From an uncultured Gammaproteobacteria bacterium (GTDB lineage Bacteria > Pseudomonadota > Gammaproteobacteria > PS1 > Pseudothioglobaceae): a stretch of 34,786 nt of DNA. Positions 1,391-31,414 of the stretch are shown one piece after another. The notes beneath the pieces were generated by a model. The model was given only the letters and a program-made list of their open reading frames with translations. It was not told where the DNA came from and did not search any database. The position numbers and the translations under genes were made by a program. Position 1 is the first letter of the stretch. Every line of letters starts with the position of its first letter. The stretch spans positions 1-34,786 of the forward strand of contig CAJXOB010000011.1 in assembly GCA_913057955.1 (NCBI GenBank), given 5' to 3'.

Positions 1391-2005
1391 ATGAAAGTAA
1401 AAGTATTAAATTTAAAAACGAACAAATCTACTTCTCAAGAAGTTTCAGATGATATTTTTGGTCGGAACTATAATGAGTCATTAGTTCACCAAATAACAAC
1501 TGCCTATATGGCAGGTGGAAGAAGTGGTACTAAAGCTCAAAAAAATCGTGCTGCTGTTAGCGGTGGTGGAAAGAAGCCTTGGAAGCAGAAAGGTACTGGT
1601 CGCGCTAGAGCGGGTACTTCACGTGGTCCTATTTGGAGAAGTGGTGGTGTAACTTTTGCCGCTCAGCCTCGTAACTATTCACAAAAAGTTAATAAGAAAA
1701 TGTACAAAGGTGCAATTAGTGTTATATTTTCAGAATTGCTTCGTAATGATCGCCTAAAGATAGTTTCAGATCTTGAAATTACTGAACCAAAAACAAAAAA
1801 TATCACTTCACTAATGAAATCCTTAAACCTTAAGGATGCTTTGTTGATGACAGATGAGCTAGATGAGAACTTATACTTATCTTCACGTAATTTGTATCAT
1901 GTCGGTGTTTGTGATACGCAAAGTATAGACCCAGTAAGTTTGATTGGTTATGACAATGTAGTTATGACAAAAGCTGCGTTAAAAAAAGTTGAGGCAATGT
2001 TATGA
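1391..2005 (+). CDS. rplD: 50S ribosomal protein L4
   Basis: The product has 204 residues (E. coli 201). L4 binds domain I of 23S rRNA, and its extended loop lines the narrowest part of the exit tunnel. That loop is visible at about residues 43-90 as [20 protein letters not shown] followed by [10 protein letters not shown]. In E. coli, L4 also represses its own operon by binding the long S10 leader. Here the gap before rpsJ is too short for a leader of that size, so this control is probably absent or different. The stop overlaps the rplW start by 4 nt (ATGA), which suggests translational coupling. Confidence 0.98.
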
Positions 2006-2292
2006 ATAAAGAAAAAATATTAAGCGTCCTACTAGGACCCATTGTTTCTGAAAAATCTACTTTAGCATCGGCCAATAACCAGTACGTCTTCAAGGTTAGA
2101 CCTGATAGTAATAAGAGAGAAGTGAAAGCTGCAGTTGAAGAATTATTTGGAGTTACTGTTGAAGGTGTTACTACATCGAATGTAAAAGGTAAGAGAAAGA
2201 TTTACAAAGGTAAAGCTGGACAGCGAGTTAATTGGAAAAAAGCGGTCGTTAAAGTGTCTGAAGGTCAGATGATTGACGCAACTGCCTCATAG
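2002..2292 (+). CDS. rplW: 50S ribosomal protein L23
   Basis: The product has 96 residues (E. coli 100). L23 sits at the tunnel exit and is the docking site for trigger factor and the signal recognition particle. The docking motif Val-Ser-Glu is present at residues 15-17 (GPIVSEKS). The C-terminal part with the basic extended loop ([20 protein letters not shown]) is typical of the family. Its ATG overlaps the rplD stop by 4 nt. rplB begins 10 nt after its stop. Confidence 0.97.
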
Positions 2293-2302
2293 AGAATTTA
2301 TT

Positions 2303-3127
2303 ATGGCATTAGTTATAAAAAGAAAACCAACCTCACCAGGTAGAAGACATGTTGTCAGTGTAGTTGATAAAGATTTGCACAAAGGAAAACCTTTTGCAGC
2401 TTTAACAGAGAGCAAGAATAGAATAAATGGTCGCAATAACCGTGGAAAAATCACTGTTAGGCATAGAGGTGGAGGCCATAAACAGAGATATCGTATTATT
2501 GACTTTAAACGTAATAAGGATGATATAGCTGCAACAGTTGAAAGAATTGAATACGATCCAAATAGAAGCGCAAACATTGCTTTAGTTCTATATGCAGATG
2601 GTGAAAGACGATACATAATTGCACCAAAGGGCGTTAATGCTGGTGACAAAGTTATTTCTGGAAACTCAGTTGCAATTCAAACAGGTAATACCCTGCCTTT
2701 GAGTAATATTCCACTTGGTAGCGTAATACATTGTGTTGAGCTTAAGCCACAAAAAGGAGCGCAAATTGCAAGAAGCGCTGGCACTTCAGTGCAACTAGTA
2801 GCTAAAGAAGGTAACTACGTTACCCTTAGACTTCGTTCTGGTGAGGTGAGAAAAGTACTAGCTGAATGTCGCGCGACTCTTGGTCAGGTTTCAAAGTCAG
2901 AACATAGTTTAAGAAAATTAGGAAAGGCTGGAGCGACACGCTGGAGAGGAGTTAGACCAACAGTACGTGGAGTAGTAATGAATCCAGTTGATCACCCACA
3001 TGGTGGTGGTGAAGGAAAAACTAGTGGTGGTAGACATCCAGTTTCTCCTTGGGGTACTCCTACTAAAGGATACAAAACACGTAGCAATAAACGTACTGAT
3101 AAGCTTATCGTACGTCGCAGAAATTAA
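2303..3127 (+). CDS. rplB: 50S ribosomal protein L2
   Basis: The product has 274 residues (E. coli 273). L2 binds domain IV of 23S rRNA and is needed for subunit joining and peptidyl-transferase activity. The signature [20 protein letters not shown] is present, with the conserved histidines at about residues 231 and 233. The frame is open upstream to 2273, but that longer start would overlap rplW and add ten residues with no counterpart in the family. The ATG at 2303 gives [15 protein letters not shown], which matches the usual N-terminus. Confidence 0.97.
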
Positions 3128-18200: not shown

Positions 18201-18928
18201 ATCGTAATCAAATTGGCGCTATTGTTGGATCTCAGCCTTTTGGCGGTGAAGGCTTGTCGGGAACTGGCCCCAAGGCAGGTGGCCCAAGCTCACTGCATGG
18301 ATACAGCCAGAGTATAGCTTCAACTAAGGCAACCGATCATGAGCTTAAACTCTATGGTAATATAGAAGTTAATGATTTGATTTTGCCAAGTAACCTAATA
18401 ACTACAGGTTTGATATCTAAAATGCAAAAAAAGTTTTCATTTATTGAAAGTGATTTTTTTGATTTTTTATATGAAGAAATATCTAAATATTCAGCCAAGA
18501 TTTCCTTACCTGGACCTACTGGAGAATCAAATAATATTAGATATAAACCCAAGGGGGCTGCGCTATGCCTTGGTCCAACAGAGGTCGACACACTTAAACA
18601 AACTTTGTTGTCTCTTGTATTAGGTAACAGTGTTATCAGTCTTATTCAAGAAGACGAATACAACTCTTTAATTGCATTAGGGTTTAGTAAGGAAAATATA
18701 TTCAGGCTAACTAATGGACCGAGCCTTAACTTAATGAGAAGTGGGTCGTATAAAGTAGTGCTTTATTTTGGCAGCTTAATATCAGTTGAAAGGTTAATTT
18801 TTGACTTTCGTTCAGAGATTGTTCCAATTATGAGCTCGCTTTATGAGACTTGGCAATTAGTTAATGAGCGGGTTATCACTGAAGACACTACTGCATCTGG
18901 TGGCAATGCCAATCTCTTAGCGCTTTAA
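15296..18928 (+). CDS. putA: Bifunctional proline dehydrogenase / pyrroline-5-carboxylate dehydrogenase
   Basis: This enzyme oxidises proline to glutamate in two steps, passing electrons to FAD/quinone and NAD+. The product has 1210 residues. The proline dehydrogenase barrel spans about 180-470, with FEVQRLHGMGESLH near residue 423. The aldehyde dehydrogenase domain spans about 560-1020, with PWNFPLAIFTGQIAAAL, Glu784 in AETGG and the catalytic Cys818 in SAGQRCSALRVL. A C-terminal domain ends with TASGGNANLLAL, as in E. coli PutA, so the 3' end is complete. The E. coli ribbon-helix-helix repressor domain is missing, so regulation must come from elsewhere, probably the divergent Lrp-type gene. 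The ATG at 15296 has no evident ribosome-binding site; an ATG at residue 21 is an alternative. Confidence 0.97.
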   Translation: MQNQFNSKIFEIDYSPSRKNMRNARVMDEGEILNYLKLFEKTSLNQRKDLQQKTASLIKDLRVSNQPDLLSLFISEYNLTSDEGLSLMTLVEAFLRVPDNKTRDKLFIDKVARKGWTKHIGGSKSSMVNIATIALTIADKMIAHGSNNEIKNRIKKALEILSRPGVRFSANNVIQFFAKQFVFAENIQNAIKSSKAQKGLYSFDMLGEAAWTMEDADKYFLSYKNALIEIGEHRQSENVFEADGISVKLSALHPKYDFMHRDRVLSELLPRIIELVHIAQKYNIGINIDAEEAERLDLSLDVIDQIMSSIANTSWKGFGVVVQAYQKRSPYVIDWLDQSCKKHHLKIMVRLVKGAYWDSEIKKAQVMGEVDYPVFTKKINTDYSFLVCAQKLLLLRGYIYPQFASHNAHSLVSVCEIAGDNMGFEVQRLHGMGESLHNHIKSKYGVSSRVYAPIGSHKELLAYLMRRLLENGANSSFINHLFDESIKPESLAIDVFSEVEEDTNKSHSKIPLPKDIYKSIRQNSASIMLTEQNEVDLLFQSQEFWLKNKWQAKSMIYGLTLEDAYEEEVKNPSDTSDTVGSVLYADHSQLEHCLVSAQNVFNSNSQNQERMLESLDRAAELYEENQFELMALAMREAGKTYQDAIDEVREAVDFLRYYSNLARKVMPNKRKAMGVFVCISPWNFPLAIFTGQIAAALASGNVVIAKPAESTSLIAYRASELLIEAGIPLGTFQLCLGRGSDVGSYLSSSSIISGVAFTGSTTVAKQIKRNLVKNGNPEARVIAETGGLNAMVVDSTALCEQVTRDVIDGAFKSAGQRCSALRVLMIQEECFDETLKMIKGAMMELNIGNPKHLSTDCGPVINDDARLKLQGYIDQSRKRSQIIGEIQCNLNAGYYVSPTIIHLKSIDEINEEFFGPILHVISYKSSELEDMIDRLNNKGFGLTFGIHSRIDKQVEEITSRVNAGNIYVNRNQIGAIVGSQPFGGEGLSGTGPKAGGPSSLHGYSQSIASTKATDHELKLYGNIEVNDLILPSNLITTGLISKMQKKFSFIESDFFDFLYEEISKYSAKISLPGPTGESNNIRYKPKGAALCLGPTEVDTLKQTLLSLVLGNSVISLIQEDEYNSLIALGFSKENIFRLTNGPSLNLMRSGSYKVVLYFGSLISVERLIFDFRSEIVPIMSSLYETWQLVNERVITEDTTASGGNANLLAL

Positions 18929-19920
18929 TCTTTATTTCTGGCTTTAAATGATGTTGGTGTTAATTTAGTTTGGCCAATGAACCATCTTACAAATGAAGAG
19001 GGATCTGAGTAGCCAAGCTGATATGAAACTACTTTAACTGAAAGGCCGCTTTGAAGCATATTTTTGGTTTTTTTTAGCTTGAAGTTGTTTAGTACTTTTC
19101 GGAATGTTGTATTTTCTTTTGATAGCTGGTAACGAAATTTATTAGTACTGATGCCAAGTTGGTCTGATATTACTTGAATATTGATATTGCTATAGTGATT
19201 TTCATAATTGCTCATTAGAACTTCTATATTTGTAATAAGGTTTTTCTTGCCATCTTTTTTATCCATTTTTTCTTGTGCAATTGCCTTTAAGTAATCAACG
19301 AGTTGCGTGTTTGAAATAGCATTCTTTTTTAAATAATTTTTTTTACTAATAACAATTGAAGTTTCTGAGCTTTGAGAATTTATTGGGCAATTAAAAACTG
19401 ACTCCTCTTTGATGGCGCTTCCAACAGTAAGTATTTTTGTATTAATGCATCTAATTGGAAATCTTTTAGATCTAATAAAAGCAGCAAGTATTGAAAGACA
19501 TAGATTCTCATAAATAGATCCATGTTTAATATTTGGATTTGCAATAAATATTACTTTAACTTCGGTTGATTCTTCTCTTATGGCAAAATTAATACCCTCT
19601 AATTCAATATTTACATAAGCTTGAAGTAATTTAAAGCCCTCTTTTAAGTGTCGTGAATAAACAAACATCAAGCCAAATGCTTCAGCATAGTTTGGTCTTA
19701 TTTGAGCTAATCGAGCATAATTAATTGTGATTAATTCATCATTAAAAACTGATTCAGCTTCTATAAAAAATTTTAAAAAAACATCAACTGGAAGCGTTAA
19801 ATTTTGATTTAACAACATACTTCCTGATAAGCCAATTCTATGACAAATATCATTTACCTTGTCTGGATAAATTTGATGTAATCTCTTGATTGATCTCCAA
19901 ACTGCGCTATTTGTATTCAT
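18925..19920 (-). CDS. AraC-family transcriptional regulator
   Basis: The product has 331 residues. The C-terminal AraC/XylS DNA-binding domain (about 243-328) has two helix-turn-helix units. The first is around ISDQLGISTNKFRYQLSKEN and the second around VVSYQLGYSDPSSFVRWFIG, ending with TPTSFKARN. The N-terminal part (about 20-200) resembles the Arabinose_bd-type sensor domain found in OruR-like regulators (PF12625 by recollection). The gene is divergent from fadE across 189 nt and probably controls that operon in response to a fatty-acid-derived or related ligand; this is inferred from position only. It converges on putA with a 4-nt overlap of the coding ends. Confidence 0.92.
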   Translation of the reverse strand: MNTNSAVWRSIKRLHQIYPDKVNDICHRIGLSGSMLLNQNLTLPVDVFLKFFIEAESVFNDELITINYARLAQIRPNYAEAFGLMFVYSRHLKEGFKLLQAYVNIELEGINFAIREESTEVKVIFIANPNIKHGSIYENLCLSILAAFIRSKRFPIRCINTKILTVGSAIKEESVFNCPINSQSSETSIVISKKNYLKKNAISNTQLVDYLKAIAQEKMDKKDGKKNLITNIEVLMSNYENHYSNINIQVISDQLGISTNKFRYQLSKENTTFRKVLNNFKLKKTKNMLQSGLSVKVVSYQLGYSDPSSFVRWFIGQTKLTPTSFKARNKD

Positions 19921-20109: not shown

Positions 20110-22566
20110 ATGCTAGAAACTATATTCCAATATTCGCTACTATCTTTTTTCCTTTCTATTGTATTAATTTTAGTAGCTTTAGTGAAGTTTCAAATCAAAC
20201 CTTGGCAATTATGGCTAATGGCTATTGGATTGACGTATCCAGGTGCCGTAATTGCCGATCATTTTGGCGCTCAGCTTATACTTCTTGCACTTCTAGCTAT
20301 TGGAGTACTCATTGTCCCAAGTGTTAGATTATTATTGTTTACTAAGCCTCTTTACAAGGCAATGCGTAAATCTCTTCCTCCGATTGGTTTAACGGAAAGT
20401 ATTGCACTTGAGGCGGGAAGTGTTTGGTGGGATGCTGAGTTATTTCAAGGAAATCCTGATTGGAAAAAACTATCAGACCTTGAGGCTACTGAACTGACTG
20501 CTGAGGAGAAAAGTTTTGTTGATAATGAAGTTGAAACTCTTTGCTCTATGGTCGATTCATATGAAATTGTTTCTAGTGAAGATTTGCCTAAAGAGGTTTG
20601 GCAATTTATTTTTGATAAAGGTTTTTTGGGCTTGATTATTCCAAAAGAATTTAATGGCCTTGGTTTTTCTCATTTTGCACATGCCATAATTGTCGGAAAA
20701 CTTTCATCGGCTTCTCAATTTTTGGGAATTTCAGTTATGGTCCCAAATTCATTAGGGCCAGGCGAGCTATTATTAAAGTATGGAACAGAAGAGCAAAAAC
20801 AACATTACTTGCCTCGACTCGCAAAAGGAAAAGAGGTGCCATGCTTTGGGCTAACTTCTACAGTCGCTGGATCTGATGCAGGCTCTTTGGAAGATAATGG
20901 AATAGTCTGTTACGGCGAGCACGAAGGTAAAAAAGTTTTGGGCTTAAAATTAAATTGGGAAAAACGGTATATCACTCTTGCGCCGATTGCTACAGTTATT
21001 GGTTTGGCTTTTAAAGCATATGATCCTGATAATTTATTGCCAGCTGACCACCCTCTTTATAAGAAAAATGATTTAGGAATTACGTGTGCGCTTATTCCAC
21101 GAAAAACTGAGGGTTTAAGTATAGGAACACGTCATCGCCCTATTGGCGAGCCATTTCAAAATGGTCCAATTTATGGTAAAGATGTTTTTATACCAATGGA
21201 CTGGGTTATTGGCGGTGACAAAATGATTGGCCATGGCTGGAGAATGCTTATGGAGTGCCTAAGTGTTGGCAGAGGAATTTCGTTGCCTGTAACTGGAGCT
21301 TCTGCCACTCAGGCTATGCTTTTAACTACTAGCACCTATGCACAAACCCGAGAACAGTTTGGAATTCCAATTGCAAAAATGGAGGGAATCCAAGAAAAAC
21401 TTTCGAATCTCGCTACAAATGCATTTCGAGCAACTGCAAACATTAATCTTTCTACTTGGGCGCTTGATGCTGGACACCGTCCATCAATTATTTCAGCAAT
21501 AGTGAAATATAGAAACACACAGTTATTACAAAACTCTTCGATAGATGCTATGGACGTTCATGGCGGCAGAGGGGTAATGCAAGGTAAAAGAAATTATGTT
21601 TCAAATGTCTACTCTGGGGCGCCAGTTGCAATTACAGTTGAAGGCGCAAACATTCTAACTAGAAGTTTAATGATTTTTGGACAGGGCCTGATTAGGTGCC
21701 ACAAAACTTTGTTAGATGAATTAACAGCGCTTCATGATGACGGGAAGGATGCAATAAAGAATTTTGATAAAGCACTAGTAACTCATGTTGGAAGCTTTAT
21801 TAATAACATCGCAAGAGCAATTGTTTATTCCTGGACTAGAGGCAGATTAGCAAAACCTTACGGTGATAAAACCACAAAGCTATACTACAGAAGCCTATCA
21901 GTGTTATCGGCAAAGTTTGCCGTTTTAACCGATATTGCTTCTTTGTTACTGGGAGGCTCTTTAAAAAGAAAAGAGATGGTGTCCGGTCGATTTGCTGATG
22001 CAATTTCTGCAATGTATGAAATCAGTTCATGCATAAAGCTTTATGAGGAAAAGTTCCAGAATGATAATAATGTTGAAAGCATTCTTAAATTATCAGTTCT
22101 CACATTAGCTCAAGAGGCTGATGTTGCGATGCGAGAAAATATAGAAAGTATGCCAATTAATAAGGTTATTAAATCGATACTAAGGTTTCTATTTTTTCCT
22201 TTTTCAGTTACTAACGATAAAATTAATGATAAATTAATCATTGCTACTTCAAATTCTATTACTGATATTGACTGGTTGATAGATAACTTATCTACATGCA
22301 TTTGTTCAAACTTAAAAGAAAAACCTGGTCACCCTTTTTATATTTTGTTTCAAGGCTATGAAGCTGGACTTAAGCTAAAAGTGCTTAGAGACAAAGCAAA
22401 AAAAGCAGGTTACAAGTATAAGCCGAGCATAACCTTAGAGTTTTGGCTTCAAGGTCTTGTTGACAATAAAACTTTAACAACTAGAGATAAAGACGATTGG
22501 ATAAGTTGGAACAACACTCTTCTCGAAGCATTGAAAGTTGATGATTTTGAAAATTTAGAGAATTAA
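20110..22566 (+). CDS. fadE: Acyl-CoA dehydrogenase, FadE type (membrane-anchored)
   Basis: FadE catalyses the first step of beta-oxidation, converting acyl-CoA to trans-2-enoyl-CoA with FAD. The product has 818 residues (E. coli 814) and aligns along its whole length. Hydrophobic segments at about 9-24, 34-49 and 54-77 should anchor it in the inner membrane. Then come AGSVWWDAELFQGNPDWKKL, VPNSLGPGELLLKYGTEEQK, ALIPRK, GWRMLMECLSVGRGISLP and ITVEGANILTRSLMIFGQG, all FadE blocks. The start is set by AAGGA 9 nt upstream. It heads a tight operon; the FadN-type gene follows after 15 nt. It is divergent from the AraC-type gene. Confidence 0.97.
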   Translation: MLETIFQYSLLSFFLSIVLILVALVKFQIKPWQLWLMAIGLTYPGAVIADHFGAQLILLALLAIGVLIVPSVRLLLFTKPLYKAMRKSLPPIGLTESIALEAGSVWWDAELFQGNPDWKKLSDLEATELTAEEKSFVDNEVETLCSMVDSYEIVSSEDLPKEVWQFIFDKGFLGLIIPKEFNGLGFSHFAHAIIVGKLSSASQFLGISVMVPNSLGPGELLLKYGTEEQKQHYLPRLAKGKEVPCFGLTSTVAGSDAGSLEDNGIVCYGEHEGKKVLGLKLNWEKRYITLAPIATVIGLAFKAYDPDNLLPADHPLYKKNDLGITCALIPRKTEGLSIGTRHRPIGEPFQNGPIYGKDVFIPMDWVIGGDKMIGHGWRMLMECLSVGRGISLPVTGASATQAMLLTTSTYAQTREQFGIPIAKMEGIQEKLSNLATNAFRATANINLSTWALDAGHRPSIISAIVKYRNTQLLQNSSIDAMDVHGGRGVMQGKRNYVSNVYSGAPVAITVEGANILTRSLMIFGQGLIRCHKTLLDELTALHDDGKDAIKNFDKALVTHVGSFINNIARAIVYSWTRGRLAKPYGDKTTKLYYRSLSVLSAKFAVLTDIASLLLGGSLKRKEMVSGRFADAISAMYEISSCIKLYEEKFQNDNNVESILKLSVLTLAQEADVAMRENIESMPINKVIKSILRFLFFPFSVTNDKINDKLIIATSNSITDIDWLIDNLSTCICSNLKEKPGHPFYILFQGYEAGLKLKVLRDKAKKAGYKYKPSITLEFWLQGLVDNKTLTTRDKDDWISWNNTLLEALKVDDFENLEN

Positions 22567-22581
22567 ATATATAGGAAAACT

Positions 22582-25020
22582 ATGAAACAATATTTTGATA
22601 AAGCTTTTAGCAAGATTGCAGTACTTGGTTCGGGAACAATGGGCGGTCAAATAGCAGCGCACTTTGCTAATTTAGGGTTTGATGTGGTAATGTTTGATAC
22701 AAGTGAAGAGGCGCTAAAGAAATCTCTCACTATGTTGAAAAAATTAAAGCCTACGCCGTTTGCAAGTCCGTCAATAGCTAGTTTAATTAAGACTTCAACG
22801 TATGAAAACCTGGGCGCATTATTGCAGTGTGATTTCATAATTGAGTCTATTGTTGAAAATATTGATATCAAAAAACAACTTTTTTTGAAAATCGCTCCTT
22901 TTGTAAATGATCGCGCAGTCTTGGTGACAAATACCTCGGGGCTGTCAATTCAAAAAATTGCTGAGCATTCTCCAGAAAGTTTGAGAAGTAGAATTTTTGG
23001 TGTTCACTTCTTCAATCCTCCTAGATATTTGCCTCTTGTTGAATTAATACGCACTTCATTTAGTGATGAAAAGTTGCTGACTATAGCCGAAGGATTTATT
23101 ACCTCTGCATTAGGAAAAGAGGTTGTGTATGCGAAAGATAGCCCAGCTTTTATTGCTAATAGAATAGGTGTTTTTTCTTTATTGGCTGTATTAAGGCATG
23201 CTGAAAATTTCTCTCTCTCAGCCGATACGGTTGATGCGTTAACTGGAAAGAGGATTGGAAGGCCTGCTAGTGCAACATTCAGAACGCTAGATGTTGTTGG
23301 TCTTGATGTGATGTCGAACGTTGTTAAGAATGTTTATGAAAATGCTAAGGATGATCCCTGGATTGAGCTGTTCAAACTTCCTGACTGGATAGATCATTTA
23401 ATTGAAAAAGGGTCACTCGGAAGCAAGACTAAAAAAGGCATATATGAGAAAGTAGGAAAGAATATCAATGTCTATGATCCAGCTACTGGAGAATATAGAC
23501 TCTCAGATAAAGCCATTAGTTCAAAGGTTAAGAAAATACTCAAAGATAATGGAAGTATTGAGAATTCATTATTGGAGCTTTCAAAATCTGACGATCCTCA
23601 AGCGCAATTTTTATGGTCGGTTCATCGTGATGTTTTTCATTATGCTGCCTTTCACCTTGAGCATGTTGCTGAAACAGTAAGATGTGTTGACCTTGCGCTA
23701 AGGTCAGGATTTGCATGGCAGAAAGGTATTTTTGAGCAGGTTCAACTTACAGGCTGGAGCAAGGTTAGAGAGGCCTTTAACATTGATATTAGTAGTGGCA
23801 AAACCCTTTCCCAAGAGCCTCTTCCAAGCTGGGTTATGGACAAAGATTTTGTTTATTCAGATGATGGGGCTTTTGATCCGAATAAAAATCAATATATTCC
23901 AAGATCCACTCACCCAGTCTATGAAAGACAACTTCATAAGCGTCTTCTTGAGGGAGAAAAACAATACCAGCAAGATATTTTGCTTGAGGGTGAGGCAACT
24001 AAGTTGCTTGATATCGGTGATGGTATTGCCAGTGTTTCTTTTAAAACAAAAATGAATGTTTTAAGTTCAAACGTTTTAACTGAGCTTCCGAAGTGTCTTG
24101 ACTATCTTGAAGAAAATGGCTTTCATGCTTTAATTTTTAAGCAAGAGCAGGAGCATTTTTGTGCTGGAGCAAATCTATATGAAATAATTTCAGCTATAAA
24201 GTTAGGCTTACTAAACAAAGATCCAGGAGTTGCCTCTAAAGCTAAAAAGAAGGCATTTGAGGTTATGAATCCAGGGCTTCCAAAGCTTGGTAAGCTTTAC
24301 TCCATTAAAAAAACAGTGGCTATGTTGCAAGAGCTGTTGATGCGTTTAAAGCATGGAAAAATATTAACAATTGCAGCGGTTGATGGGTTGGCACTTGGAG
24401 GAGGCTGTGAGCTTTTATTGCATTGTAATAAAGTTGTCGCTTCAATGAACTCATACATCGGTCTTGTTGAGGTAGGTATTGGCGCTTTGCCAGCTGGTTG
24501 TGGTAGTAAAGAAATGGCGGTAAGAGCATTTCTCAATAAAGAAGCGGATGATATATTTCCTTTGCTTTCTAAACATTTTGAGCAAATTGCTATGGCCAAA
24601 GTTTCGGCAAGTGCATTAGAGGCAAGAGAAATGGGTTATTTAAAGAGTGATGATGTAATTATTGCTAATCCAAATGAGTTGCTTTATGTTGCAAAACAGC
24701 AGGCACTGTCATTACTAGAATCTGGGTTTAAATCTCCTTTAGATGCAACATTTAAAGTTGTTGGAAAGGCTGGGTATGCAAATATTATGGCTCAAATTGC
24801 CAATCTTTATGAGGGCCATTTTATGTCAGAGCATGATAAGTACTGCGTAACTTCTTTGGCAAAAGTCATGACTGGCTCTGAAGTAGAAGAAAATACAACA
24901 GTGAACTCACAAATGTTATTAGACCTTGAGAGAAAGTACTTTGTAGAGCTTTTAGGTACTCAGAAAACGCAAGATAGAATTGAGTTTATGCTCAGAAATA
25001 GTAAACCACTTCGAAATTAA
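22582..25020 (+). CDS. fadN: 3-hydroxyacyl-CoA dehydrogenase / enoyl-CoA hydratase, FadN type
   Basis: This multifunctional enzyme runs the middle steps of beta-oxidation. The product has 812 residues. The NAD-dependent hydroxyacyl-CoA dehydrogenase comes first: GSGTMG at 16-21 is the nucleotide loop, and the catalytic pair is His142 in HFFNPP and Glu154 in PLVEL. The enoyl-CoA hydratase domain is C-terminal (about 500-790), with HFCAGANL and both catalytic acids, Glu610 in GGGCEL and Glu630 in GLVEVGIGALP. E. coli FadB and FadJ have the opposite domain order; Bacillus subtilis FadN has this one. It sits between fadE and fadA, the same partners as in the B. subtilis fadN-fadA-fadE operon. Confidence 0.95.
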   Translation: MKQYFDKAFSKIAVLGSGTMGGQIAAHFANLGFDVVMFDTSEEALKKSLTMLKKLKPTPFASPSIASLIKTSTYENLGALLQCDFIIESIVENIDIKKQLFLKIAPFVNDRAVLVTNTSGLSIQKIAEHSPESLRSRIFGVHFFNPPRYLPLVELIRTSFSDEKLLTIAEGFITSALGKEVVYAKDSPAFIANRIGVFSLLAVLRHAENFSLSADTVDALTGKRIGRPASATFRTLDVVGLDVMSNVVKNVYENAKDDPWIELFKLPDWIDHLIEKGSLGSKTKKGIYEKVGKNINVYDPATGEYRLSDKAISSKVKKILKDNGSIENSLLELSKSDDPQAQFLWSVHRDVFHYAAFHLEHVAETVRCVDLALRSGFAWQKGIFEQVQLTGWSKVREAFNIDISSGKTLSQEPLPSWVMDKDFVYSDDGAFDPNKNQYIPRSTHPVYERQLHKRLLEGEKQYQQDILLEGEATKLLDIGDGIASVSFKTKMNVLSSNVLTELPKCLDYLEENGFHALIFKQEQEHFCAGANLYEIISAIKLGLLNKDPGVASKAKKKAFEVMNPGLPKLGKLYSIKKTVAMLQELLMRLKHGKILTIAAVDGLALGGGCELLLHCNKVVASMNSYIGLVEVGIGALPAGCGSKEMAVRAFLNKEADDIFPLLSKHFEQIAMAKVSASALEAREMGYLKSDDVIIANPNELLYVAKQQALSLLESGFKSPLDATFKVVGKAGYANIMAQIANLYEGHFMSEHDKYCVTSLAKVMTGSEVEENTTVNSQMLLDLERKYFVELLGTQKTQDRIEFMLRNSKPLRN

Positions 25021-25032
25021 CTGGAGATCATT

Positions 25033-26226
25033 ATGAGAAAAGCTTATATTATTGATGCAAAGAGGACTCCTGTTGGCAAAGTAAGGGGTTTATTGTCTAA
25101 AACTAGGGCGGATGATTTATTGATTCATGCAATACAAAGTGTTTTGAAAGCGTCCGATGCTAGCGAAGCAATTAATAAAAATATTGATGACATTATTGTC
25201 GGCTGTGCAATGCCAGAGGGCCCTCAGGGTCTTAATATCGCTCGTATTGCAACTTTACTTGCCGGTTTGCCAGATTCAACTCCTGCCTACACTTTAAATA
25301 GGTTTTGTTCTTCAGGGCTTCAGTCAGTATCCAATGCTGCTGACTTAGTAAAATCGGGATCAGCTGACTTGGTCATAGCCGCTGGAGTAGAGAGTATGAG
25401 TAGCGTCCCCATGACTGGCTTCAAGCCATCTATGAATCCTAAAATTTTATCAGATGAAAATATTTCTATTGCATATGGGATGGGCTTAACAGCAGAAAAG
25501 GTAGCTCAGAAATATAATATTTCAAGAGAGGCGCAAGATGAATTTGCATTTGCGAGCCATCAAAAAGCAATTCTTGCGAACAATAATGGTTCATTTTCAA
25601 ATGAAATATCTCCGATCACTACAACTGAAAATGGCTACTCAATTAACTCTAATGAATATACAACTCGTTCTAATATTGTCTCTAAAGATGAAGGGCCAAG
25701 GGAAGATACAAGTCTTGAAGTTTTGGCAAAACTAAGAACTGTATTTGCACTGGATGGTTCAGTTACTGCAGGAAACAGTTCACAAATGTCTGATGCTGCG
25801 GCCGCAGTTCTTGTTGCAAGTGAAGAGGCAGTTGAGAAATATAATTTAACACCAAAAGCTGAGTTCATGGGCTTTTCAGTTGCAGGTGTTCCTGCAGAAA
25901 TTATGGGAATTGGCCCAGTTAAGGCAATCCCTAAAGTTTTAAAATCAACAGGTTTAAGTCTTGATGATATTGGTTGGATTGAGCTTAATGAAGCCTTTGC
26001 TGCACAGTCTTTAGCTGTAATTAAAGAGCTGGACCTTGATCCTGAAAAAGTCAACCCACTTGGGGGTGCAATTGCTCTGGGGCATCCATTAGGCGCCACA
26101 GGGGCCATAAGGATTGCTACTTTAGTGTCTGCTATGCAACGAGAAAATATTGATTATGGCATGGTCACAATGTGTATTGGAACTGGAATGGGCGCAGCTG
26201 GAATACTTAAAAATATAAGAAATTAA
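25033..26226 (+). CDS. fadA: Acetyl-CoA C-acyltransferase (3-ketoacyl-CoA thiolase)
   Basis: The thiolase cleaves 3-ketoacyl-CoA with CoA, the last step of each beta-oxidation round. The product has 397 residues, normal for the family. The acyl-accepting Cys92 lies in NRFCSSGLQS, the catalytic His351 in GGAIALGHPLGATGA, and the second Cys381 in MCIGTGMGAAG. NEAFAAQ is also present. All key residues are intact. It follows the FadN-type gene after 12 nt, and the next gene starts with no gap after its stop. Choice between a beta-oxidation thiolase and an acetyl-CoA acetyltransferase rests on the operon. Confidence 0.95.
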   Translation: MRKAYIIDAKRTPVGKVRGLLSKTRADDLLIHAIQSVLKASDASEAINKNIDDIIVGCAMPEGPQGLNIARIATLLAGLPDSTPAYTLNRFCSSGLQSVSNAADLVKSGSADLVIAAGVESMSSVPMTGFKPSMNPKILSDENISIAYGMGLTAEKVAQKYNISREAQDEFAFASHQKAILANNNGSFSNEISPITTTENGYSINSNEYTTRSNIVSKDEGPREDTSLEVLAKLRTVFALDGSVTAGNSSQMSDAAAAVLVASEEAVEKYNLTPKAEFMGFSVAGVPAEIMGIGPVKAIPKVLKSTGLSLDDIGWIELNEAFAAQSLAVIKELDLDPEKVNPLGGAIALGHPLGATGAIRIATLVSAMQRENIDYGMVTMCIGTGMGAAGILKNIRN

Positions 26227-27207
26227 ATGAAAAAACAAAATTTTATCAATAAGTTAAGGCTGCCAATTATTCAGTCACCAATGTTCATCGTTTCTAATGC
26301 GAGACTTGTTATTGCATCATCAAAGGCGGGAATTGTTGGATCATTTCCATCAGCTAATTGTCGAACTCTAGAAGCGCTTGATCAAGCTTTTTCTGAAATA
26401 ACCGAAGCTTTAGGCTCAGGTAAAGAAGCCTTTCCTTGGGCGGTTAACCTTATTGTAAGTAAAATGTATGCTCGGAGTAATAATGACCTAGATTTAATTC
26501 TTAAACACCAGCCACCAATCGTAATTACTTCACTTGGTAATCCCAAAGAGGTTGTTGAAAAAGTTCATAAATATGGTGGGCTAGTTTTTTCAGATGTTAT
26601 TAATTTATACCACTCAAAGAAAGCAATTGATGCTGGAGTTGACGGTTTAATATTGGTTTGTAATGGTGCAGGCGGGCATACTGGTGAATTATCACCATTT
26701 GCTTTTGTATCTGAAGTGAGAGAGATTTTTGATGGAACAATTATTGTGGGCGGAAGTATTAGCTCAGGTGATTCAGTTTTGGCAATCCAAGCTATGGGCG
26801 CTGACATGGCTTATATGGGAACTCGCTTTATTGCAACAAAAGAAAGCGACGCCACTGATGAGTATAAAGAGATGATACTTAACGCCTCAGCAAGCGACAT
26901 TATTAAGTCTAATAAAATTACTGGCGTTAATGGAAACTGGCTCGAGCAATCACTAAAAAATGCTGGAATTTCATCTAAAGATGGTGGCTTTAAGCGAACA
27001 TTGGGTGATTTAAAGAAAATGATAATGCCTCTAATCAAACAAAAACTTAAAGTAGATTTTGATATAAGCAAGGTGACCGCTAAAAGGTGGCGTGATATTT
27101 TTTCAGCAGGTCAAGGCGTTGGCTCTATTTCCAATGTTCCAAGTGTTGAGGATTTAGTGTTAGAATTAGAAAAGCAGTATGCTAATTCAAAAAGTCGAAT
27201 TTTATAA
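26227..27207 (+). CDS. Nitronate monooxygenase-family flavoprotein
   Basis: The product has 326 residues and the TIM-barrel pattern of the 2-nitropropane dioxygenase/nitronate monooxygenase family, which binds FMN. LPIIQSPMFIVSNARL near the N-terminus and NGAGGHTG with His151 (the catalytic position in characterised members) are visible. So are IIVGGSISSGDSVLAIQAMG and ADMAYMGTRFIAT in the phosphate-binding part. The ATG directly follows the fadA stop, so translation is probably coupled. Relatives include FabK-type enoyl reductases, and members often sit in fatty-acid operons. The true substrate here is unknown; it may act on an unsaturated or toxic acyl intermediate, or remove nitronates. 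Confidence 0.9.
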   Translation: MKKQNFINKLRLPIIQSPMFIVSNARLVIASSKAGIVGSFPSANCRTLEALDQAFSEITEALGSGKEAFPWAVNLIVSKMYARSNNDLDLILKHQPPIVITSLGNPKEVVEKVHKYGGLVFSDVINLYHSKKAIDAGVDGLILVCNGAGGHTGELSPFAFVSEVREIFDGTIIVGGSISSGDSVLAIQAMGADMAYMGTRFIATKESDATDEYKEMILNASASDIIKSNKITGVNGNWLEQSLKNAGISSKDGGFKRTLGDLKKMIMPLIKQKLKVDFDISKVTAKRWRDIFSAGQGVGSISNVPSVEDLVLELEKQYANSKSRIL

Positions 27208-27220
27208 GGATAAGTAATAA

Positions 27221-27790
27221 ATGCTATCGAAGCCATCAAAGCGAGATTTAAAGCACAATAGAACCATTGAAGGCAAAGGTTATCTGAGAGATGATGGGCT
27301 TTGGGACATTGAGGTCTTCCTTGTAGATAGCAAAACGTATTCATTTGAAAATATGCACAGAGGCTACATTAGCGCTGGAGAGCCTCTCCATGATATGGCT
27401 GTCCGATTAACTCTTGATGACGACAGGAAAATTATCGATATAGAAGCAGTAATTAATGCATCTCCATACAATGTTTGCCCGCAAGCAGTACAAAATTGCC
27501 AAAATTTAAAAGGCGAATATTTAATTGCTGGTTTTAACAGAAAGGTTATAAAAACAATGGGCGGTGAAAAAGGATGTAGGCATATTACTGACTTATTGGC
27601 TTATGCCGGAACGATTGCTTATCAAACTCTTTGGAAAGAGAAAACTGGTGATGAAACTAATACTATTTCTTTAGAGGAAGCCAAATCAATAGAAAAGAAA
27701 TTTACAAACTCTTGTTTTGCATTTAAGAAGGATGGAGAGGTTTATAATCAATACAAAGAAATACTGATAAATAGGCTTGAGAAAAGTTAA
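27221..27790 (+). CDS. DUF2889 domain-containing protein
   Basis: The product has 189 residues and fits the DUF2889 family as I remember it: GYLRDDGLWDIEVFLVDSKT, then GEPLHDMAVRLTLDDD, then GGEKGCRHITDLL and a final AYQTLW. No function is known to me. His57, Cys86, Cys93, Cys119 and His121 lie in these conserved parts and could form a metal site, which is inference. There is no signal peptide or membrane segment. It lies 13 nt after the flavoprotein gene and 22 nt before fadD in a co-directional operon, so a role in fatty-acid or acyl-CoA metabolism is likely. Confidence 0.88.
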   Translation: MLSKPSKRDLKHNRTIEGKGYLRDDGLWDIEVFLVDSKTYSFENMHRGYISAGEPLHDMAVRLTLDDDRKIIDIEAVINASPYNVCPQAVQNCQNLKGEYLIAGFNRKVIKTMGGEKGCRHITDLLAYAGTIAYQTLWKEKTGDETNTISLEEAKSIEKKFTNSCFAFKKDGEVYNQYKEILINRLEKS

Positions 27791-27812
27791 TTAACAAACA
27801 TAAGGGGAGAGC

Positions 27813-29462
27813 ATGGAAACAGTAATACCAAAAACACTCGAAGAGACAGAGTTTTTTAAAAAACACGGTAATTTAGTTGAGTTTTTTGACAGCTGCTGTC
27901 AAGAGCACAACGGAAAAATGGCTTTTGAAAGTTTTGGTGTTGAAATGTCATACGAAGGTCTTTCAGAGAAGGTAAATGCCTTTGCTTCGTGGTTAACTAA
28001 TAATTTCCAGGCAGGAGATAGGATAGCTGTGATGATGCCAAATATGCTTGCCTACCCCGTAATTGTATATGGCGCATTGAAAGCCGGCATCGTTGTTGTT
28101 AATATTAATCCTCTCTATACGCAAAGAGAATTAGAGCATGTTCTTAAAGATAGTGAAACTAAAGTATTGGTAGTTTGGGAGGGTGTCGCTAATGTAGTAG
28201 AGAAGTCTAATCTTGCGAATGTAGAAACAGTTATGATTACAACTGTTGGTGACCTTCTTGGATTTAAAGGGAAAATTATTAACTTCGTGGCTAGAAAAGT
28301 TAAAAAATTAGTACCCAAATTTAACATTGATAGCGCAGTAATGTTTGATAAAGTATTAAGTGATAATTCAGGAGCAACCCCAGTTAAAGTTGACGTTTCT
28401 ATTGATAGTACAGCATTTCTTCAATACACTGGAGGCACAACAGGAGTTTCAAAGGGCGCAGTATTGTCTCATCGAAATATCCTTGCAAACATTATCCAAG
28501 CGTTTTTCACAATAAACCCAAAAATGTATGATGAATCGAGAAATGATCAGAGAATTGCAATCTGCCCACTACCTCTTTATCATATTTTTGCTTTAACAGT
28601 GCACAACTTCATGCTGTTTCATATTGGCGGTAAAAGTGTACTTATTACGAACCCAAGAGACCTTAAAACTTTTGTTTCAATTATGAAAAAACACAAGTTC
28701 CATATGATCTCAGGCGTAAACACTCTTTATGAGGCGTTATTAAATTATGATGGCTTTAAGGAGTTAGATTTTAGCAACTTGCTGATGTCATTAAGTGGTG
28801 GAATGGCTGCTTTAGATACGACTGCTAAAAGGTGGTATGAAACTACTCAATCGGTTATTTGGCAGGCTTATGGCTTAACTGAGACTTCTCCATTGGTGAG
28901 CGTCCCTGATTATAAGCAAACTGAATTTACTGGCTCTGTAGGTTTGCCCGCTGCGTTTACTGAAATTGAAATTCGTGATGAGGATAGCAATGTTTTAACA
29001 GAGACTGATGCTGTTGGAGAGCTTTGCGTTCGTGGTCCTCAAGTTATGAGTGGCTATTGGAATTCGGAAGTTACTGGCCTTGATAAAAATAACTGGTTTA
29101 TGACGGGCGATATTGCTCGAATAGATAAAACTGGTAATATTTTCATTGTTGATCGTAAAAAAGATATGATCATCGTTTCGGGTTTCAATGTATATCCAAA
29201 TGAGGTGGAGGCTGTTGTTAATGAGCACCCAGCCGTACTTGAGTGTGGATGTGTTGGAATTAAGGGTGAGGCTTCTCAAGAGCTTGTCAAAGTGTTTATA
29301 GTTCTTCATGAGGGAAAATCTCTTTCTGAAGAAGAGATTATTAGCTTTTGCCGTGAAAAATTAACAGCTTATAAGGTGCCTAAGCATGTTGAGTTTATTA
29401 AGGAAATCCCCAAAACAAATGTTGGTAAAGTACTTAGAAGAGAGCTGAAAACTGAGTCTTAA
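27813..29462 (+). CDS. fadD: Long-chain fatty acid-CoA ligase
   Basis: FadD activates fatty acids to acyl-CoA with ATP, feeding the beta-oxidation enzymes encoded upstream. The product has 549 residues (E. coli FadD 561). The AMP-binding P-loop is YTGGTTGVSKGAVLSHRN at about 205-222. YGLTETSPLV follows, then the fatty-acyl signature NWFMTGDIARIDKTGNIFIV with DRKKDMIIVSG, and the C-terminal catalytic lysine in TNVGKVLRREL. AAGGGGAGAGC before the ATG is a strong ribosome-binding site. Its stop shares one base with the next start. Confidence 0.95.
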   Translation: METVIPKTLEETEFFKKHGNLVEFFDSCCQEHNGKMAFESFGVEMSYEGLSEKVNAFASWLTNNFQAGDRIAVMMPNMLAYPVIVYGALKAGIVVVNINPLYTQRELEHVLKDSETKVLVVWEGVANVVEKSNLANVETVMITTVGDLLGFKGKIINFVARKVKKLVPKFNIDSAVMFDKVLSDNSGATPVKVDVSIDSTAFLQYTGGTTGVSKGAVLSHRNILANIIQAFFTINPKMYDESRNDQRIAICPLPLYHIFALTVHNFMLFHIGGKSVLITNPRDLKTFVSIMKKHKFHMISGVNTLYEALLNYDGFKELDFSNLLMSLSGGMAALDTTAKRWYETTQSVIWQAYGLTETSPLVSVPDYKQTEFTGSVGLPAAFTEIEIRDEDSNVLTETDAVGELCVRGPQVMSGYWNSEVTGLDKNNWFMTGDIARIDKTGNIFIVDRKKDMIIVSGFNVYPNEVEAVVNEHPAVLECGCVGIKGEASQELVKVFIVLHEGKSLSEEEIISFCREKLTAYKVPKHVEFIKEIPKTNVGKVLRRELKTES

Positions 29463-31414
29463 TGAGTGCGTTACTTTGGAAGCCAACTTTAAGCGAAATA
29501 GAAAATTCCCAGGCCTGGGAGTTTATCCAGGAAGCTAATAAAAAGTTCAATATAAGTTTGGAAAATTTTCATGACTTGTATAAATGGTCATGCAAATATC
29601 CTAAGTCTTTTTGGGAGTTATTTTGGGGATATTCTAAAATTATTGCGGAGAAAGACTCTAAAGAGGTTTTAAAAAATGGCGATGATTTTTTAGGGTCAGA
29701 ATGGTTTTCAGATTCTAAATTAAATTTCGCAAAAAATCTATTATCCAAAAGAGATCAAACACCTGCTATTGTTTTTTGGGGAGAGGATAAATATAAAAGC
29801 TCTTTAACGCACTCTGAATTATACAATCAGGTTGCAAGGCTTTCTCATTGGCTTAAGAAAAGTGGCGTTAGAAAAGGCGACCGTGTTGCTGGCTTGCTTC
29901 CTAACATGTCCGAAGCGGTGGTCTCAATGTTGGCAACATCTAGTATTGGTGCAATTTGGACATCTTGTTCTCCTGATTTTGGGGTCCAAGGAGTCCTAGA
30001 TCGATTTGGCCAAGTTAAGCCTAAAGTATTTATTTGTGTAGATGCGTATCTTTATAACGGAAAGGTTTTTAATTGCCTTGAAAAGAATGCAGAAATAATT
30101 TTCAAGTTGCCATCTATTGAGAACACTTTGTTGGTTCGTTATATTGACGAACGATCTTCTTTTGGTGACCTTAATTCTTTTTCAGCCTTCGATGAAGTTG
30201 TTGAACAGGAAGTAACTCCTGAATTAATTTTTGAATCTGTTGCGTTTAATGACCCACTCTATATTTTATTTTCATCTGGAACTACTGGCGTTCCAAAGTG
30301 TATTGTTCATGGAGTTGGCGGGACTCTAATTCAACACAAAAAAGAGCACACTCTCCACTGTGATATTAAAGAGGGGGAAAGAATCTTTTATTTTTCTACC
30401 TGTGGTTGGATGATGTGGAACTGGCTCGTTAGCTCTTTAGCTTCTGGCGCAACGTTAATGCTCTATGATGGCTCGCCGATTCTTAAACATAACGATAGTA
30501 TTTTGTTTGACTATGTAGATCAAGAGCAAATTAATGTGATGGGTGTATCTGCAAAGTTTTTGGATACTTGCCGGAAAACAAACCTCAATCCCAATACATC
30601 TCATAATTTAAAAGATTTAAGAATGATGCTTTCAACAGGGTCAGTATTAAGTGCGGATTGTTTTGATTATGTATATGAGTGTGTAAAGGAAAAAATATGT
30701 TTATCCTCCATTTCAGGTGGCACTGATATTGTTTCTTGTTTTGTATTGGGCTCTACAATACTTCCAGTGTATCAAGGCGAGTTACAAACTCGAGGACTTG
30801 GCCTTTCTGTTGAAGTTTGGAATGAGCTAGGTGAGTCAGTTGTTGGTGAAAAGGGAGAGCTGGTATGTACTAATACTTTTCCTTCAAAACCGGTAATGTT
30901 TTGGAACGATAAAAATATGGATAAATACAAAAATTCATATTTTGAACGCTACTCTAATGTTTGGTGCCATGGCGATTATGTGAGGCTCATGGAAACGAAT
31001 GGAATGATTTTTTATGGGAGGTCAGATACGACCCTTAACCGAGGCGGAGTGAGAATTGGAACAGCTGAAATATATCGACAAGTTGAAACACTAATTGAAG
31101 TTTTAGAGTCGGTAGTTGTAGAGCAAGCCTTTGATGATGACTCACGAATCATTTTATTTGTAAAGTTGAATGAAGGCTTGAAATTGAGTGATGAGCTAAA
31201 ACATAAAATAGTCCGTCAAATTAGAAGCAACACTTCACCTAGACATGTTCCAGACATAATAATTCAAGTCTCCGATATTCCTAGAACCAAGAGCGGAAAA
31301 ATTGTTGAGTTGGCAGTTCAGAAGGCAATTCATAACTTGCCAATTGATAATAAAACAGCTCTAGAAAATCCCGAAGTCCTTAAAGAGTACTATGATCTTA
31401 AAGAGCTACAATGA
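29462..31414 (+). CDS. Acetoacetate-CoA ligase
   Basis: The product has 650 residues, the length of acetoacetyl-CoA synthetases, which activate acetoacetate with ATP and CoA. The N-terminal SALLWKPTLSEIENSQAWEF and the ACS_N-like WELFWGYSKI are typical. The P-loop is FSSGTTGVPKCIVHGVGGTL, followed by STCGWMMWNWLVS, GRSDTTLNRGGVRIGTAEIY and the catalytic lysine in PRTKSGKIVE. It distinguishes itself from acetyl-CoA synthetase by the LWKP start and HGVGGTLIQHKKEH. It is the last gene of the fad operon, coupled to fadD by a 1-nt overlap, and would send acetoacetyl-CoA to the thiolase. Confidence 0.93.
   Translation: MSALLWKPTLSEIENSQAWEFIQEANKKFNISLENFHDLYKWSCKYPKSFWELFWGYSKIIAEKDSKEVLKNGDDFLGSEWFSDSKLNFAKNLLSKRDQTPAIVFWGEDKYKSSLTHSELYNQVARLSHWLKKSGVRKGDRVAGLLPNMSEAVVSMLATSSIGAIWTSCSPDFGVQGVLDRFGQVKPKVFICVDAYLYNGKVFNCLEKNAEIIFKLPSIENTLLVRYIDERSSFGDLNSFSAFDEVVEQEVTPELIFESVAFNDPLYILFSSGTTGVPKCIVHGVGGTLIQHKKEHTLHCDIKEGERIFYFSTCGWMMWNWLVSSLASGATLMLYDGSPILKHNDSILFDYVDQEQINVMGVSAKFLDTCRKTNLNPNTSHNLKDLRMMLSTGSVLSADCFDYVYECVKEKICLSSISGGTDIVSCFVLGSTILPVYQGELQTRGLGLSVEVWNELGESVVGEKGELVCTNTFPSKPVMFWNDKNMDKYKNSYFERYSNVWCHGDYVRLMETNGMIFYGRSDTTLNRGGVRIGTAEIYRQVETLIEVLESVVVEQAFDDDSRIILFVKLNEGLKLSDELKHKIVRQIRSNTSPRHVPDIIIQVSDIPRTKSGKIVELAVQKAIHNLPIDNKTALENPEVLKEYYDLKELQ

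Follow-up and report, generated by a model that had tools for sequence, protein, structure and literature searches.

The locus studied here raises the question of what two extra genes, one encoding a nitronate monooxygenase (NMO)-family protein and the other a DUF2889 protein, are doing in the middle of a fatty acid β-oxidation operon that is, apart from them, ordinary. The window, i.e. the whole 34,786-nucleotide stretch of DNA that was analyzed, belongs to a marine bacterium's 1.57 Mb genome (97.5% complete), the closest named relatives of which, among the best 80 of 522 DUF2889 relatives, are SUP05-cluster and Pseudothioglobus genomes. A single co-directional run on the forward strand (20110-31414) encodes, in order, a bacterial-type acyl-CoA dehydrogenase, FadE (20110-22566; 818 residues; NF009586 901 bits, cut-off 608; PF09317 176.9 bits), a FadB-type 3-hydroxyacyl-CoA dehydrogenase/enoyl-CoA hydratase (22582-25020; 812 residues; PF02737, PF00725, and PF00378), a 3-ketoacyl-CoA thiolase (25033-26226; 397 residues), the NMO-family FMN protein, which is FabK-like (26227-27207; 326 residues), the DUF2889 protein (27221-27790; 189 residues), a long-chain acyl-CoA ligase, FadD (27813-29462; 549 residues; PF00501 286.6 bits, with long-chain-fatty-acid--CoA ligases as the best NCBIfam matches), and an acetoacetyl-CoA ligase (29462-31414; 650 residues; TIGR01217 848.2 bits, cut-off 520.9), the gene for which overlaps fadD by 1 nt. 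The intergenic gaps along the run are 15, 12, 0, 13, 22, and -1 nt, i.e. the NMO gene begins directly after the thiolase stop; the coordinates, order, and spacings given in an earlier, sequence-only reading of this DNA were right, as was its placement of the NMO and DUF2889 genes within a β-oxidation operon. With FadE, FadB-type, thiolase, and FadD proteins all encoded in the one run, the operon is, as judged by family matches, a complete β-oxidation unit, covering activation, dehydrogenation, hydration/oxidation, and thiolysis. The thiolase gene had been named fadA; its product is a 3-ketoacyl-CoA thiolase, but of the PRK09052 type (NF006553 611.7 bits, cut-off 567) and not a FadA equivalogue (TIGR02445 325 bits vs a cut-off of 591). 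The FadB-type protein scores under the FadB equivalogue cut-offs in the NCBIfam search. An AraC-family regulator gene (18925-19920, reverse strand; PF12833 52 bits, cut-off 33.6) is divergent from fadE; its cluster has 9 members and lies beside fadE in 9 of 101 neighborhood records.

Compared with bacterial fad operons having ETF/ETF-QO, the window likewise brings together FadE, FadB, thiolase, FadD, and acetoacetyl-CoA ligase. By contrast, it adds the NMO and DUF2889 genes, where other Thioglobaceae have a patatin-like gene. The order NMO-DUF2889-fadD is found in 17 of 19 loci (L001 and L083-L100; L082, from another genus, is left out of this count), with L099 and L100 having no NMO gene. Other Thioglobaceae genera have fadE-fadB-thiolase-fadD arrangements without DUF2889, in which a patatin-like gene of ~1 kb fills the slot between thiolase and fadD, as Pfam-checked for L309 and L311, and as seen only from a gap of matching size for L310, L318, and L320. 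In L309 the patatin-like phospholipase gene occupies positions 1573-2652 (reverse strand), and in L311 (11061-13676, forward strand) the phospholipase is fused to FadD in a single 871-residue frame. A setting unlike that in the rest of the family occurs on an 18,881-base Thioglobaceae contig (L007/L314), where no fad gene and no NMO gene were found around a DUF2889 gene, the product of which is 84-85% identical.

The DUF2889 protein of the window matches PF11136 over its full length (123.6 bits, cut-off 25, with 124.6 bits in the genome search; match at 27254-27625, forward strand) and has every invariant residue of the family. PF11136 is its sole Pfam match at E values up to 1, and it falls in no NCBIfam family. 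The sequence-only reading had proposed that conserved His and Cys residues at positions 57, 86, 93, 119, and 121 (His, Cys, Cys, Cys, and His, respectively) could hold a metal. Across 113 sequences made nonredundant at 80%, H57, C86, C119, and H121 are identical throughout, as are H12, R14, D36, P82, and G98, so that four of the five positions are borne out; C93 is variable, being mostly Phe or Tyr in relatives, and two further candidates had been missed, i.e. H12 and C165, the latter kept in 111 of the 111 sequences having a residue at that position. The same pattern is seen in a smaller alignment (50 sequences). Very dense polar conservation is present on the first hairpin too (H12, R14, R23, D25, W28, D29, E31, D36, K38, R62, and Q135). 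Given the strict conservation, together with the IscU-like predicted fold described below, a His/Cys metal site, as proposed, is plausible.

AlphaFold models of the window protein (model 1; mean pLDDT 90.4) and of a DUF2889 protein from a different species (model 2; 90.8) are concordant. Both comprise a hairpin at 12-22/28-38, a second hairpin at 55-65/70-80, a helix of which C86 (codon 27476-27478) is the first residue, and a long helix (residues 120-142) just after C119, the start of which is marked by the C119-R120-H121 codons (27575-27583). VIA-align comparisons with model 1 are led by IscU/ISCU chains (Z 8.0-8.6; the crystal and cryo-EM ones have an rmsd of 2.5-2.9 Å over 92-97 residues), level with which are LplA (8.4), resorufin ligase (8.2), aldehyde oxidase (8.2), and nicotinate dehydrogenase (8.1); with model 2, ISCU crystal chains (Z 7.2-7.5) tie with aldehyde oxidase, CO dehydrogenase, LplA, and RnfG domains. 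Foldseek places ISCU2 at ranks 1-5 for model 2 (probability 0.57-0.92, E 0.065-0.11) and ISCU/IscU entries at E 0.17-0.23 for model 1, with no match at E 0.001 or better for either; its top entries for model 1, RNase R/exosome chains with TM ~0.2, were treated as noise. The DUF2889 profile, searched against PDB sequences, gave nothing under E 0.26.

Profile comparison points weakly in the same direction. IscU/SufU ranks first of 66 families in hhalign (P 0.015 vs 0.033 for the best of 65 controls), at a probability of only 3-8%, the P value being 0.0044 with the 50-sequence and 0.015 with the 113-sequence alignment; the end match obtained from hhalign in its global mode was meaningless and was discarded. 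The weak alignment from 50 sequences puts G53-x-P55-x-H57 on the G-x-P-x-Cys37 of IscU, i.e. H57 (codon 27389-27391) on Cys37, and does not put C86 on Cys63. In IscU, Cys63 begins the helix after a hairpin, and C86 may be taken to correspond to it because both residues have this position. C119 falls one residue past the position of Cys138 in ISCU2 when the VIA ranges are read gap-free.

Of the solved folds, IscU/SufU (NifU_N, PF01592) are among those nearest to both models, and the DUF2889 models share with them a β hairpin followed by helices and finally by a long one, conserved His/Cys residues lying at matching loops. By contrast, DUF2889 has a His for the first Cys, a C-x-H before the last helix where IscU has H-C, no counterpart of Asp39, an extra, invariant-rich N-terminal hairpin, and an invariant C-terminal C165. 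The LPPVK motif, which is the chaperone site of IscU, is absent from DUF2889, in contrast to the host's own IscU; the latter is a separate, normal IscU encoded elsewhere in the genome (G000:C56). The IscU ligand positions, as given in the parts of PMC4243993 and PMC11021402 available, are Cys37, Asp39, Cys63, His105, and Cys106. This pattern (three Cys, an Asp, and a His) is not found in DUF2889, which has H57, C86, C119, H121, and C165 instead, and PF01592 does not match the protein in Pfam at E values up to 1; for these two reasons it is not classed with IscU, the working of which it may nevertheless resemble. The available text of a De-DUFing study (PMC4520260) ties DUF2889 to a SCOP superfamily, and the idea of an IscU-like fold for the family may already be in print in its supplement. 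That no function has been described for DUF2889, as had been supposed, agrees with that study, with the accessible text of PMC7253759, and with the literature searched.

DUF2889 is patchily distributed, being present in 26 of 275 class genomes and 44 of 397 phylum genomes (both even draws, not all genomes) and in none of 14 well-known control genomes, and its sites vary with lineage. Since only the best 80 of 522 DUF2889 relatives were kept in the relative search, near relatives are over-represented in that set. Counts of neighbors come from six-frame searches of genomes that are not independent of their neighbors, employing acyl-CoA HMMs seeded with clusters in which some of the test loci themselves figure, and 40 control regions hand-placed at round coordinates in DUF2889-holding genomes; on this basis, an acyl-CoA gene lies within 1.5 kb of DUF2889 in 16 of 67 sampled loci vs 3 of 40 control regions (one-sided Fisher 0.026), the contrast being weaker within 5 kb (18/67 vs 6/40). 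Beyond this genus, too, both DUF2889 and the NMO subfamily (12 of 22 loci, again vs 3/40) are thus linked by neighborhood to the catabolism of acyl-CoA. The sequence-only reading would have been refuted by variable His/Cys positions or by the absence of fad neighbors in other genomes; four of its five positions stand up to this, the neighborhood only in part, with the aroKB-corC and recA-recX-sucCD sites of DUF2889 falling outside it.

DUF2889 and the NMO gene also follow the ETF/ETF-QO branch of electron transfer. A gene for ETF or ETF-QO occurs no more than 6 kb from DUF2889 in 9 of 147 loci (L018, L043, L128, L129, L131, L151, L207, L213, and L214, of which L128/L129 and L213/L214 are pairs, each from one genus), and none of the 40 control regions has one. 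The orders include ACAD-FadD-DUF2889-ECH-EtfB-EtfA-FadB-thiolase (L213 and L214) and FadB-DUF2889-ACAD-ETFQO-EtfB-EtfA (L151). In the class sample, ETF-QO (PF05187) is present in 20 of 26 DUF2889 genomes vs 83 of 249 others (Fisher 2e-5, uncorrected for relatedness), so that 6 of the 26 lack ETF-QO, and 83 genomes have ETF-QO without DUF2889. Among 83 Thioglobaceae genomes, DUF2889 and ETF-QO are each found in 25, neither occurring outside the same two of the 11 genera; in the 49 that are near-complete the same 11 genomes hold both, with FadE in 17 of these 49 and in 38 of the 83 overall. Ten Thioglobaceae genomes yielded DUF2889 without ETF-QO or the reverse (five of each kind), and every one of them is less than 90% complete. 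The co-occurrence within this family may reflect only one or two gains. Two other candidate partners were rejected. FadE is in 23 of 25 DUF2889 genomes of the family, but also in 15 of 58 without DUF2889. PhaC, from the gene for which DUF2889 is divergent in L016, L026, and L044, is in 14 of 26 DUF2889 genomes vs 54 of 249 others, and was set aside as a general partner because the window's own genome has none.

Other neighbors were observed in particular lineages. A histone-deacetylase-family gene closely follows DUF2889 in four gammaproteobacterial loci (L031, L033, L037, and L039; Pfam-checked in L031), in three of which an acyl-CoA ligase gene precedes it. In L153 (8709-9665, forward strand) a SnoaL-like domain is joined to a divergent DUF2889-like protein, which covers profile positions 39-120 and the gene for which begins 33 nt after that of an OYE/FAD-type flavoprotein. 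The divergent relatives in both L152 and L153 adjoin a flavoprotein with a C-x2-C-x2-C-x11-C motif, the spacing of which we take to be that of the TMADH/FadH cysteine motif; it fits an Fe-S flavoprotein theme. In alphaproteobacterial-type loci (L056 and similar; Pfam-checked in L056), bolA adjoins DUF2889 on the opposite strand, its cluster occurring in 19 of 101 records; according to the available text of PMC5014550, mitochondrial BolA proteins act in the assembly of Fe-S clusters.

The reading that we prefer, at a probability of about one in three, is that DUF2889 has an IscU-type fold and serves acyl-CoA dehydrogenase/ETF oxidation as a metal or Fe-S accessory. The protein would most likely be a soluble metalloprotein of small size, folded like IscU/SufU, in which the invariant H57, C86, C119, and H121, perhaps with C165 and H12, would form a metal or Fe-S site at the sheet end that in IscU bears Cys37, Cys63, His105, and Cys106. 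Judging from the neighborhoods and co-occurrence, it may supply or repair a metal or Fe-S cofactor, or pass sulfur, for the branch leading from acyl-CoA dehydrogenase via ETF to ETF-QO. ETF-QO holds a 4Fe-4S cluster, and a bolder form of the proposal, which we consider distinctly improbable, is that DUF2889 is an unrecognized IscU-fold scaffold with a mixed His/Cys site, working outside ISC, that delivers or repairs this cluster and those of related Fe-S flavoproteins. Were this so, a pathway-dedicated Fe-S carrier would be encoded within fad and etf operons; no IscU-fold domain of unknown function in β-oxidation was found in the literature searched, so far as its text was available.

It may instead be that DUF2889 is itself a Zn or Fe enzyme that acts on some small metabolite, whether a CoA thioester or another, in which case the IscU-like shape would be no more than a common α/β arrangement of the kind found in the C-terminal domain of lipoate ligase. 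The non-IscU folds that tie in Z are consistent with this, and the invariant polar residues packed on the first hairpin look like an active site; because so many of these are charged, a catalytic role, though doubtful, is nearly as likely as an accessory one. Neighbors from CoA metabolism also favor it, including sucC-sucD and HMG-CoA-lyase-type genes (L128, L131, L146, and L148), one of which is beside DUF2889 in L146, the only one of the four that was Pfam-checked. By contrast, no known enzyme family was matched in Pfam or NCBIfam, no sequence relative was found in the PDB, and sister genera run ordinary β-oxidation without DUF2889.

A general housekeeping role, e.g. in broad Fe-S, zinc, or protein-quality functions, with the place in the fad operon incidental, would account for the 51 of 67 sampled loci that have no acyl-CoA gene within 1.5 kb, and for the fixed, nonlipid sites of the gene. 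The latter are aroK-aroB-corC-CBS-DUF2889, beyond which lie bolA, a DnaJ-like gene, and cobS-cobT (the aroB cluster is in 24 of 101 records), recA-recX-DUF2889-sucC-sucD (9 loci), and ribH-nusB-DUF2889-thiL-type (L142, with the same clusters in L130). This role is unlikely in view of the enrichment near acyl-CoA and ETF genes and of the patchy presence (26/275 and 44/397), which argues against any essential function.

The joint role suggested in the sequence-only reading, in which the NMO and DUF2889 proteins clear a fatty acid by-product or process an unusual acyl-CoA, is the least probable, having no specific support as a detoxification and being disfavored, despite the adjacency of the pair in 17 of 19 genus-search loci and its recurrence in another order (ACAD-FadD-DUF2889-NMO-ECH; NMO 46% identical) in Marinobacterium lacunae (L042), by the non-fatty-acid sites of DUF2889, by the DUF2889-free fad operons, by the presence of the NMO gene near DUF2889 in only 12 of 147 loci, all of them except L042 on SUP05-type contigs (the top of the relative search), by the occurrence of the NMO subfamily in only 6 of 26 DUF2889 genomes and of DUF2889 in only 6 of 20 NMO genomes, and by four genomes (G001, G019, G687, and G701) having thiolase-DUF2889-fadD without NMO in the same operon, because of which the two are regarded as separable.

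The NMO protein is, on our preferred reading of the operon, a second, separable accessory, probably an FMN oxidoreductase of the FabK or NADH:quinone reductase type that would be tied to the ETF branch. It belongs to PF03060 (100.7 bits, cut-off 28), a family of FMN TIM-barrel proteins, and is not a FabK equivalogue (TIGR03151 105.2 bits vs a cut-off of 453.1). Its best PDB sequence matches are FabK (1.6e-21) and PA1024 (2gjl; 4.1e-8), the latter an NADH:quinone reductase; among its likenesses to these two members of the family are GGHTG and GTRFIATKES stretches in its sequence. By contrast with FabK, it sits among catabolic, not biosynthetic, genes. The subfamily, delimited at E <1e-70, a threshold set after a gap from 1e-71 to 1e-38 was seen, has members in 20 of the 275 class genomes; ETF-QO is present in 20 of these 20 vs 83 of the 255 others and in 2 of the 13 genomes having a weaker NMO match only. 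In the 12 of 22 NMO loci mentioned above, an acyl-CoA or ETF gene is no more than 1.5 kb away, the count leaving out L042, which was brought in by DUF2889. Members of the subfamily (window 26227-27207 and L333-L352) often adjoin acyl-CoA dehydrogenase, enoyl-CoA hydratase, or etfAB genes. No described NMO-ETF-acyl-CoA gene cluster was found in the literature searched, within the text available.

DUF2889 is a strictly conserved family for which no assigned function was found in the literature searched, so far as the sources were available, and its role becomes testable through a fold predicted to resemble that of IscU, a few candidate site residues, and the association with ETF/ETF-QO; it is the set of residues and the ETF association that merit follow-up. 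That the NMO subfamily is strictly nested in ETF-QO genomes provides a second handle on unexplained flavoproteins in fatty acid operons. If DUF2889 is a dedicated Fe-S accessory, β-oxidation would have its own cofactor supply line.
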